DNA of 64,000 bases. It comes from Bradymonas sediminis (GTDB lineage Bacteria; Myxococcota_A; Bradymonadia; Bradymonadales; Bradymonadaceae). The DNA is taken from contig NZ_CP030032.1 of assembly GCF_003258315.1 (NCBI RefSeq), positions 4,695,501 to 4,759,500 of the forward strand. Direction: 5' to 3'. A program made the translations under genes and the position numbers. The notes below the pieces were generated by a model. That model searched no databases, had not been told where the DNA came from, and worked only from the letters and a program-made list of their open reading frames with translations. This document shows positions 49,099 to 52,994 of the stretch, in pieces (position 1 is the first letter of the stretch; each line of letters starts with the position of its first letter).

Positions 49099-51564
49099 CT
49101 AGGCCGCGCCGGCGATCAGCTTTGTAAGGAGCTCGCCGACCTTCGATTTTATTTCGCTTCGGCTCGCGTCGGGCGGGCCCACACACGTCGGGCAGCCGGA
49201 TTCGCAGGCGCAACTTCGCACCAATTGTTGGGCCAATTCGAGGAACGCGCCGTGGTGGTTGAAGAGACCTTCGCCAAAGCCCACGCCGCCAGGATATTGG
49301 TCGTAGATAAAGATCGTGGGGTCATAGAGCACGGGGCCGACCTCGCCGGGACCAAAGTCGGAGTCGCCCCCGACGAGGACCTCGCCGGCGCCCTGTCCGC
49401 TTCGCACGCTCAGGCCGTCAAAGCCCTCGCTTAGCCATTGGTCGTCGCTCTGCGAGCCGATGCACAGGTCCAGGTCGCGCGCGTCGCACATCAGCCGCAG
49501 GGTCGCCGCGGTCTGCAGCACCTTACCCACCCCGAAGACGATGCGCGCCCATTGCTCGGGGTTATTCGCCAATTTGGGGAAGTTGTCGGTCGGCAGCTCC
49601 AGCCAATAGGCCATCGTATGTAGGTCCAACTCCGGCAGGTTAATCTCGCCATATCCGATATTCTCGCCGGTGCCGAATTTGATCTTTTTATAGCCCACGA
49701 ACCTCTGCGTGACGCGGATTTCGCCGAAGCCGATGCGCCCCGGCAGCACGTCGCGCTCGTCGAAGATATCCAGCACGTGGACCGCGCTAAAATGCATCGC
49801 GGTGGTATAATAGCCGTCGTCGCTCTTTCGCACATAGGCGCGGCGCTCGTCATAGTCCAGGCGCTCAACCCGGTAGGGCTCGCCAGATATCTGGTAGACC
49901 GCGTTGGGATAAAGCGCGGTGTGCGCCCCCTCGAAGTCCACTTCGGCGACCACATTCGATGCGTTGTGAGTCTGGTCGATGACGACGAAATTCTCCTCGG
50001 CGATATTGCGCAAATTCACCGTTATGGCCGGGTAGGTCTGGTCGGACCACTTCCACAGCCCGCCCGCCTGGGTGAGCATGCCCGTCTCGCCGGCCAAAAA
50101 CTCGAGCGCCTCGTCGGTCTCGGTCGCCGACAGGTCCCCGAAGCCCTCGCCGACCTTAAACTCGAGCTCATAAGCCGCGCATTTAAGATGCTCCACCGCG
50201 ATCAGCAGGTTTTTGGGGTCGATGCGCGCCTCTTCGGGCGATTGGCCGATAAAATACTCGGGGTGCTGGATGATAAATTGGTCGACCGCGGAGTCGCCGG
50301 CCACGATGACCGCCAGGCTCGTGCCGCCGGAGCGCCCCGCCCGTCCGACCTGCTGCCAGGTCGAGGCGACCGAGCCCGGGTAACCCGCCAGAATGCAGAC
50401 ATCGAGGCTGCCGATATCGATGCCGAGTTCAAGGGCGTTGGTCGAGATCACGCCCAGGATAAACCCGTCGCGCAGCCCCTTTTCGATCGAGCGGCGAAGC
50501 CCCGGCAAGTACCCGCCGCGGTAGCTCGCGATGCGATTCTCGAGGTGATTTTGCCCGCGCTGGCGGCTCAATTTGCTCTTGAGCCGGTGGACCACCACTT
50601 CGACCGATTGGCGACTTCGGGCAAATACAATCGTGCCGCAGCCCATCGAGATGGTCTTGCGGGCCACGCGCTCCGCGGCGCTCAGCGGGCTCTGCCGACG
50701 CATCTGCTGCGGGTCAACGATCGGCGGATTGAAGAAGCAGAGATAGCGCTCCGAGGCCGGCGCCCCGTTATTGTTTACCAGCGAAAACTTCTTATTTGTC
50801 AGGGTGTTGGCCAGCTCAGAAGGGTTCGCGATGGTGGCGCTGGTGGCGATAAAGGTGGGGCTGGCGCCGTAGTGCGCGCAGATGCGATTGAGCCGGCGAA
50901 TGACGTTGGCGACGTGGCTGCCGAAGACCCCGCGGTAGGTATGAATCTCGTCGACGATCACATATTCGAGGCTGCGGAAAAAATTCGCCCACTTGCTATG
51001 ATGCGGCAAGATGCCGGAGTGCAGCATATCGGGGTTGGTGACGACCAGGCGAGCGCTCCGGCGGATGCGCCGGCGCACGTCGGCCGGGGTGTCGCCGTCG
51101 TAGACCTGGGCTTCCCAGACCGCCTCTTTTTGGCTCGGGTCGCGGTGGGCGTCGATAAACTGAGACGCGGCGCCGAGCAATTGGTTGAGCTCGGCGGTCT
51201 GGTCCTGGCTGAGCGCCTTGGTCGGGAACAAAAAGAGCGCGCTGCCATTGCGCGCTATCGCGTCGATCACCGGCAGATTATAGCATAGGCTCTTGCCGCT
51301 GGCCGTGGGGGTCACCACCACGACATTGTCGCCGTTGAGCGCGTGGCGAATCGCCTCGGATTGGTGGCTATAGAGGCGCTCGATGCCCCGGGCGCGCAGC
51401 ATCTTTTGCAGGTCGGGGCTTAAGCCCTGGGGGAAGTCGGCGTAGGTCGCCTCCCGCGCCTTAATATGCTTGATCGAGGTCAGGTGGCGGCCGATCCCGC
51501 GGCCATTTTGCCAGCCTTCAATCAGATCTTTTAGATTGCCTTGCGGTGTGTTGATATTGCGCAT
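49099..51564 (-). CDS. mrfA: DEAD/DEAH-box helicase with DUF1998 domain, MrfA/YprA family
   Basis: An 821-residue superfamily 2 helicase. LYSHQSEAIRHALNGDNVVV opens the motor, with motif I PTASGKSLCYN, motif II DEIH, motif III ATSATIANP, motif V in NALELGIDIGSLD and motif VI QQVGRAGRSGG. The C-terminal DUF1998-like region includes FIYDQYPGGVGFGEGLF and the cysteine cluster SCACESGCPTCVG, as in MrfA, where four cysteines bind zinc. MrfA is a 3'-5' DNA helicase acting with MrfB in mitomycin C repair in Bacillus. The start at 51564 (MRNINTPQGN) is chosen; the frame open to 51777 would overlap the divergent cysteine-rich gene. Rof follows on the same strand. Confidence 0.9.
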   Translation of the reverse strand: MRNINTPQGNLKDLIEGWQNGRGIGRHLTSIKHIKAREATYADFPQGLSPDLQKMLRARGIERLYSHQSEAIRHALNGDNVVVVTPTASGKSLCYNLPVIDAIARNGSALFLFPTKALSQDQTAELNQLLGAASQFIDAHRDPSQKEAVWEAQVYDGDTPADVRRRIRRSARLVVTNPDMLHSGILPHHSKWANFFRSLEYVIVDEIHTYRGVFGSHVANVIRRLNRICAHYGASPTFIATSATIANPSELANTLTNKKFSLVNNNGAPASERYLCFFNPPIVDPQQMRRQSPLSAAERVARKTISMGCGTIVFARSRQSVEVVVHRLKSKLSRQRGQNHLENRIASYRGGYLPGLRRSIEKGLRDGFILGVISTNALELGIDIGSLDVCILAGYPGSVASTWQQVGRAGRSGGTSLAVIVAGDSAVDQFIIQHPEYFIGQSPEEARIDPKNLLIAVEHLKCAAYELEFKVGEGFGDLSATETDEALEFLAGETGMLTQAGGLWKWSDQTYPAITVNLRNIAEENFVVIDQTHNASNVVAEVDFEGAHTALYPNAVYQISGEPYRVERLDYDERRAYVRKSDDGYYTTAMHFSAVHVLDIFDERDVLPGRIGFGEIRVTQRFVGYKKIKFGTGENIGYGEINLPELDLHTMAYWLELPTDNFPKLANNPEQWARIVFGVGKVLQTAATLRLMCDARDLDLCIGSQSDDQWLSEGFDGLSVRSGQGAGEVLVGGDSDFGPGEVGPVLYDPTIFIYDQYPGGVGFGEGLFNHHGAFLELAQQLVRSCACESGCPTCVGPPDASRSEIKSKVGELLTKLIAGAA

Positions 51565-51706: not shown

Positions 51707-52150
51707 ATGGCCGAAGGTATTCCGTTGGATAAGTCGGGTTTTGAGCGCGCGCTTCGCGCATTGAGCAAGGAAGTCAAAGCTACTCGCGAGAACCCGGACT
51801 CCTATAAATGCGAGGGCTCCCAGCGCTGCTACGGCTGCACCTTCACCACCGATAGCGTGGACTGCTTTAGTTGCACCTATTGCGTGGAGTGCAAGGAGTG
51901 CAGCGAGTGCACCCATTGCGTGCGCTGCGAGAACCTGCACGCGTCGAGCTATTGCGTCGACTCGCGCAATTGCTCGAACTCCTCTTATCTGGTGATGAGC
52001 GAGGATTGCTCGGATTGCGTCTTCTGCTTTGGGTGCGTGGGCCTGGTGAAGAAGGAATTTCATATTCTTAACCAGAAATTTCGCCGCGATGAGTATTTTA
52101 AGAAGATCAAAGAGCTCGAGGCCGAGTTTGGGCTCAAGCGGGGGCGTTAA
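51707..52150 (+). CDS. Cysteine-rich protein of unknown function (17 Cys)
   Basis: A 147-residue protein whose central 80 residues (about 35-115) contain 17 cysteines, many in C-x2-C spacing: YKCEGSQRCYGC, DCFSCTYCVECKECSECTHC, YCVDSRNC and DCSDCVFCFGCVG. The ends are simple helices: an N-terminal amphipathic helix and a C-terminal segment, KKEFHILNQKFRRDEYFKKI, that resembles a terminal motif I have seen in uncharacterised cysteine-repeat proteins of candidate phyla, sometimes mislabelled CaiB/BaiF. The spacing suggests a repetitive beta-fold or a metal or Fe-S scaffold, but no known cluster motif fits. It is divergent from the MrfA gene with 142 bp between starts. ATG 51707 is preferred over GTG 51701, with an AGTGGTG stretch upstream. 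Confidence 0.75.
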   Translation: MAEGIPLDKSGFERALRALSKEVKATRENPDSYKCEGSQRCYGCTFTTDSVDCFSCTYCVECKECSECTHCVRCENLHASSYCVDSRNCSNSSYLVMSEDCSDCVFCFGCVGLVKKEFHILNQKFRRDEYFKKIKELEAEFGLKRGR

Positions 52151-52196: not shown

Positions 52197-52994
52197 TTGA
52201 GGCTTGTTTTGAGCGAACCCGAGAAAACTCCACCCGATTCACTCTACGGTCGCGAGTACCTCATTCGGCGCGGTTTTCTGGCCGTGGTCGGCGTGTTGTG
52301 TGGCTTGGGTTATGTGCTTTTTTGGGACACAGCGGATACGCCATCTTCGTCGGACTCCTCCTCGGAATTTCGGGCGTCGCATGACGACTCGCCGCAGGCA
52401 GGCCAAGACGCCGAGCCCCTGGACGCCGGCGTCGCCTATGTCTGGAAGAGGCGAGGGGATTCAAAGGGGTTGGGGGCACCGGTCGAGGAAGCGAGTCCGC
52501 GTCGGGTCGTCATGCGTCCCGATATTATCGAGGCGTCCGCGCCGGATACTGGCGCCAGCGTTGGGGCCGATGCCTCCGAGTGGGTCGACCCGGTGAATCA
52601 GCGGGTGCTCGGCCGCAAGGCGTGGATGGCCGAGGTTCCCGAAGATGAGGAGGCCGCCATTGAGGCAATGCTGGACGCCCCCGCGCCCGCGCGCTATCCC
52701 ATCGACCTGGGCGTGCGCGAGTGGAGCGTCGATATCGCCGCGGAGGTGGTGAGGACCTGTTTTGGCGAAGATGAGCCCAGCGGCCGATTCGCGCTGAACT
52801 ATACGCTGGCAGCCGACGGCTCTCGCGCAACCTTCGAGGACGTGCGCCTCTCGCATATCTATAAAATGGAGACGCCGTCTCTGGGCGATTGTGTCGCTGA
52901 CACGCTCAGCCAGCGCAGCTTTCGCAGCACCGAAGACGGGCAGATGCGTGTGTCTCGACCGTTCTTTTTCGACGGCACCCAGGCGCCCAAATAA
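52197..52994 (+). CDS. Single-span protein with AgmX/PglI-like C-terminal domain
   Basis: A 265-residue protein. A membrane span (GFLAVVGVLCGLGYVLFW) lies near residue 38 and a Ser/Asp-rich linker follows. The C-terminal 85 residues (from DIAAEVVRTCFGEDEPSGRF) show the pattern of AgmX/PglI C-terminal domains: a conserved Cys, a beta sheet (FALNYTLAADGSRATFEDVR), a second Cys (LGDCVADTL) and RPFFFDG at the end. These TonB-C-like modules are characteristic of Myxococcota; AgmX of Myxococcus is linked to gliding motility. Function here is not known. Start codons TTG 52197 and TTG 52209 are both possible; no ATG is available before the span. Confidence 0.68.
   Translation: MRLVLSEPEKTPPDSLYGREYLIRRGFLAVVGVLCGLGYVLFWDTADTPSSSDSSSEFRASHDDSPQAGQDAEPLDAGVAYVWKRRGDSKGLGAPVEEASPRRVVMRPDIIEASAPDTGASVGADASEWVDPVNQRVLGRKAWMAEVPEDEEAAIEAMLDAPAPARYPIDLGVREWSVDIAAEVVRTCFGEDEPSGRFALNYTLAADGSRATFEDVRLSHIYKMETPSLGDCVADTLSQRSFRSTEDGQMRVSRPFFFDGTQAPK

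Follow-up and report, generated by a model that had tools for sequence, protein, structure and literature searches.

A family of cysteine-rich bacterial proteins with a predicted 12-residue solenoid repeat and a member in Bradymonas sediminis

The gene and its relatives

The window analysed here, a 64,000-nucleotide stretch of the Bradymonas sediminis genome, contains an open frame on its forward strand (51707..52150, stop codon included) that encodes a protein of 147 residues. Its translation holds 17 cysteines, spanning residues 35–110. The N-terminal part (residues 1–31; 51707..51799) carries a helix predicted at residues 9–24, and shows no hydrophobic, signal peptide-like stretch, as judged by hydropathy only. 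Residues 32–113 (51800..52045) form a predicted solenoid of 12-residue turns in which every third residue is an inner position, mostly Cys, Ser or Leu. The last turn, residues 104–113 (52016..52045), is near-invariant in the alignment (C104, C107, G109, C110, G112 and L113). It is followed by a conserved C-terminal cap, residues 114–147 (52046..52147; KEFHILN ... YF), which includes a helix at residues 130–139 and is modelled with low confidence. All of these parts are read from the plus strand. A divergent mrfA-type helicase gene with an MZB domain lies upstream as a linked neighbour (49099..51564, minus strand). The next gene downstream (52206-52994) has only a sub-threshold match, to an AgmX/PglI C-terminal domain, and does not recur next to the solenoid gene in the relatives searched.

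The solenoid gene is single-copy in its own 5.05 Mb genome. Protein searches place it in 20 of the 21 genomes of its family and in 38 of the 57 genomes of its class; of 282 genomes in the phylum, 91 give some profile match at E ≤ 0.001, with some of these being weak and partial. Against the closest relative (80% identity), dN is 0.14 and synonymous sites are saturated; the gene is therefore real and constrained, and this comparison indicates that it is under purifying selection. The cysteine-rich frame singled out in an earlier, sequence-only reading is thus a genuine and conserved gene.

A scan of a species-genome collection returned 116 relatives, from which 80 loci were kept, comprising 64 short-form and 16 long-form loci. 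The short-form loci are mostly titled Myxococcota, Myxococcales or Deltaproteobacteria and include Sorangium cellulosum and Polyangium. Most long-form loci belong to candidate phyla, such as Peregrinibacteria, where homologs without known function had been suspected from the outset. A profile of the candidate-phylum proteins recovers the window gene at E 7e-17, and both groups share a solenoid module followed by the cap motif CFGCVGL...N..Y....Y. In contrast to the window protein, the candidate-phylum proteins mostly have two modules and a length of about 310–610 residues, the longer ones with zinc-finger-like ends. Their genes also often stand in multi-copy arrays, unlike the single-copy window gene: at least three paralogs are present in 12 of the 16 long-form loci, with up to nine in 20 kb (tandem arrays, e.g. 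L109, L101, L106, L110 and L102). Eight candidate-phylum genomes of 0.6–1.6 Mb hold 8–46 module matches each, a heavy investment for reduced genomes; a Sorangium genome has two such matches and a Polyangium genome one. In a draw of 145 genomes from one candidate phylum, near-full-length members were found in eight, and 32 others had any match, mostly to the C-terminal finger alone.

Matches were also found in viruses. Foldseek matched a Mimiviridae protein (E 5.5e-11) and a Campylobacter virus protein (1e-6), the latter named ‘Caib/baif family protein’ in BFVD, and PHROG 15341, a group of unknown function, matches at 1.5e-6. Viral contigs yielded no relative with query A1 and one partial relative with query A3, and phage records gave no match to the candidate-phylum query. 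A match in Flavobacterium phage FL-1 was dropped, as the annotated ORF beneath it is a low-complexity frame. Selenocysteine was considered and rejected: TGA codons reported inside the matches of some relatives were terminal stops in the loci checked.

None of the nine short or long forms scanned matched a Pfam or NCBIfam family above cut-off, and an NCBIfam thymidylate synthase match on a relative (E 0.012) is attributed to chance. Literature searches returned nothing on these proteins and no characterised member. The cysteine-solenoid family thus has no Pfam or NCBIfam entry.

Repeat register and predicted fold

All 17 cysteines of the window protein lie on a single register modulo 3. An exact calculation puts the chance of such a shared register, for 17 cysteines placed in residues 32–113, at 2.4e-10. 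Written in lines of 12, the protein resolves into the repeats CTFTTDSVDCFS, CTYCVECKECSE, CTHCVRCENLHA, SSYCVDSRNCSN, SSYLVMSEDCSD and CVFCFGCVGLVK. The repeated C-x2-C spacing noted in the sequence-only reading holds, and can be refined into a 12-residue repeat that comprises more than C-x2-C alone. A simple geometric rule, a chain that probably winds into a small coil with every third residue turned inward, would account for the puzzling cysteine array.

The pattern extends across the family. The alignment omits seven of the 64 short-form loci, which were truncated or nearly identical to others, as well as 12 of the 16 candidate-phylum loci. Over the window protein and 57 aligned relatives, Cys or Ser predominates at turn positions 1 and 7 and Cys or Leu at positions 4 and 10, and position 3 is aromatic or His in 79–100% of rows. 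For the covariation counts, six of the 58 rows were removed as more than 80% alike; the 52 non-redundant rows contain four cysteines in total off the inner register, and their short-form members have 13–23 inner cysteines each.

The AlphaFold2 model of the window protein, built on a 62-sequence alignment, has short strands at regular steps, with a mean pLDDT of 79.9 that rises to about 92–97 over residues 41–100. Its best match in VIA-align is the Tenebrio-type antifreeze protein TmAFP (1ezg_A; Z 10.1, rmsd 2.8, 81 of 82 residues), the next row having a Z of 6.5. For this model, Foldseek by itself gave no match to a solved structure at E ≤ 0.001, with 1ezg appearing only at E 0.18, and a sequence profile search of the PDB ranks 1ezg first at E 0.0025 but with a large composition bias. 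The model of a candidate-phylum relative of 561 residues (pLDDT 89.4, pTM 0.88) contains two stretches of regular short strands. Its best structural matches (Z no higher than 5.1) are hexapeptide solenoids, a left-handed class, and the rows of its fold search do not include TmAFP. On these models, the window protein is probably a β-solenoid with 12 residues per turn, of either hand. A stacked β-structure had been proposed from the cysteine spacing, and the prediction agrees with it, showing a regular β-solenoid with the cysteines on the inner register that VIA-align matches to TmAFP.

PMC8038014 gives the TmAFP consensus repeat as TCTxSxNCxxAx, with residues 2, 5, 8 and 11 of each 12 facing inward in an out-in-out-out-in pattern and each turn bridged by a disulfide joining residues 2 and 8. 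The antifreeze protein (1ezg, 1l1i) resembles the window protein as modelled in having 12 residues per turn, an inward-facing residue at every third position and a Cys-rich core. The fold match, together with a Vibrio phage relative annotated ‘insect antifreeze protein’ (IPR016133), would be compatible with ice binding, the function implied by that database name, but we give this explanation hardly any credence. The window family lacks the TxT ice-binding face, TxT flanks occurring in 1 of 1623 turn-faces, and its repeat differs from the TCTxSxNCxxAx consensus. In further contrast to its insect counterpart, the window protein is bacterial, shows no export signal by hydropathy and has an additional conserved C-terminal cap. 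The family may represent an antifreeze-type solenoid, apparently without ice-binding features, placed inside bacterial cells.

State of the core cysteines

The register shared with TmAFP would be in favour of paired cysteines. In TmAFP, the bonds are formed between C2 and C8 (PMC8038014), and in the window protein six of the seven turns carry the same residue, Cys or Ser, at both positions 1 and 7. A disulfide-ladder protein like TmAFP, with one disulfide across each turn, could have such an arrangement, either as an exported, oxidised protein or as a reversible redox switch. The family as a whole makes this improbable. Across-turn cysteine pairs lack covariation (mean correlation −0.03 for positions 1–7 and −0.11 for 4–10). 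These figures are indicative only, since one stack, at turn position 4, does covary along the axis (mean +0.41, four pairs) and related sequences share ancestry. The number of cysteines is odd in 31 of the 52 non-redundant rows, and the window protein has no signal peptide-like stretch. Unpaired variation and frequent odd counts speak against C2–C8 bonding of the TmAFP kind in the window family.

The inner cysteines are, moreover, replaceable. In the candidate-phylum modules (110 of 118 used, eight being too short), inner positions are 38% Cys and otherwise mostly Ser, Leu, Val, Ala, Ile or Gly, outer positions are 0.5% Cys, and each module has between 0 and 19 inner cysteines. Because pairs do not covary, counts are often odd and inner cysteines can be replaced, the thiols most likely serve mainly as a reduced packing core, in preference to a disulfide ladder or a fixed array of metal ligands. 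The sequence-only reading suggested that the cysteines might bind several metal ions; as the function of the array in its entirety, this finds no support in cysteines that are replaceable and unpaired. Some features count against a core of packing alone. The 13–23 inner cysteines of the short-form members seem more than packing would need, and the near-invariance of the last turn, together with two phage proteins that have Cys at nearly every inner position, that is, every third residue (L111:3953-4327 and L112:2995-3366, one annotated as an insect antifreeze protein), is indicative in the same direction.

The chief alternative to the scaffold role discussed below is metal binding at the last turn. 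Zn, Cu or Fe-S would be held by the inward cysteines of successive turns, above all by C101, C104, C107 and C110 with H119, whether in a single cap site or spread along the core. C110 is present in all 62 rows, C107 in 61, C104 in 58 and C101 in 57; H119 is kept in 58 and replaced by Cys in three others. The turn at residues 56–65 of the window protein has four inner cysteines, and the two phage relatives with Cys at nearly every inner position would fit the same explanation. Opposing it, most other inner cysteines give way to Ser, Leu, Val or Ala, some candidate-phylum modules have only 0–5 inner cysteines, and candidate-phylum relatives can also carry Tyr, Phe, Leu, Ala, Ser or Glu at the H119 position. 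No curated metal-site profile matched the window protein: NCBIfam gave no match, and Pfam gave one below cut-off (Stap_Strp_toxin, E 0.49), which we ascribe to chance. Neither database contained a zinc ribbon or ferredoxin match, consistent with the initial view that the protein is neither. Overall, a metal-binding solenoid appears unlikely, and conservation in the alignment leaves a single cap metal site at the near-invariant last turn as a possible component. A more extreme form, in which several turns of the core would form a cytosolic, protein-sheathed thiolate column binding metal ions (Cu, Zn or Fe-S) in single file, is distinctly improbable in our estimation. If true, it would make an antifreeze-type fold into a one-dimensional store or wire of metal, present in many copies in some candidate-phylum genomes.

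Gene neighbourhood and possible role

The start of the solenoid gene lies 142 bp from that of mrfA (ATG at 51564, minus strand). Of the 20 genomes with the solenoid gene in the window's family, 12 have mrfA no more than about 6 kb away from it, 11 have a MoCF-domain gene and 8 an Smr-domain gene at that range, with at least one of the three in 16 and none in four; these counts are lower bounds, as some contigs end close to the solenoid gene, and are also inflated by shared ancestry within one family. The order and strand of the three genes vary between genomes. Smr, MoCF (molybdopterin-binding-type) and mrfA genes repeatedly cluster around the solenoid gene, at L115 (G013), L044, L033, L116 and L117. 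Of 14 further genomes from outside the family, one has any of these neighbours, namely Smr; a fifteenth row, from another contig without assignment, stands outside this count.

The sequence-only reading had proposed that the solenoid gene and mrfA may share a control region. Their divergent arrangement and 142 bp spacing stand, as does the linkage, but a shared control region does not emerge as a conserved feature: mrfA is divergent in only two of the 20 family genomes, the window genome and one relative with a gap of 457 bp. Two sigma-70-like sites were found in the region against 0.6 expected, both on the plus strand and with no terminator, and this candidate shared promoter was not counted as evidence.

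A different neighbour occurs among the short-form loci, in 16 of 64 of which a gene of unknown function, with the N-terminal motif TKVWHNP in most cases, lies directly upstream. It overlaps the solenoid gene by 4 nt in 11 of the 16 (examples are L051:9249-10004, L067:9369-10013 and L068:9390-10007, with 13 other loci).

The linkage to mrfA, Smr and MoCF genes suggests a nucleic-acid-processing context, as far as gene order can indicate one. We infer a cytosolic 12-residue solenoid of about seven turns with a mainly reduced thiol core that serves as a small scaffold for interaction with a partner, either protein or nucleic acid, a proposal to which we assign an even chance of being correct. Because every third residue would face inward, Cys, Ser and Leu would fill the narrow core, with the thiols mainly as reduced packing residues. 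Together with the N-terminal helix and the C-terminal cap, the outer faces, on which turn position 3 contributes a ladder of aromatic or His side chains, could then provide a rigid surface for binding. In the window's family, candidate partners would be the recurrent neighbours, that is, the Smr-domain protein, the MrfA helicase or the MoCF-domain protein, and the role is possibly linked to nucleic-acid processing. In Sorangium- and Polyangium-type genomes, the candidate partner would be the product of the overlapping upstream gene.

Pentapeptide repeat proteins would be comparable, being narrow β-solenoids with small inward residues that have cytosolic binding or mimic roles. They have five residues per face and 20 per turn, compared with the 12 per turn predicted for the window solenoid. 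Short-form members in cultured Sorangium and Polyangium strains make the family accessible at the bench.

As a separate observation, TrwB/HerA-type ATPase genes lie upstream of a solenoid gene at two candidate-phylum loci, at distances of 11 bp (L103:8050-9513) and 4 bp (L104:6394-8598).
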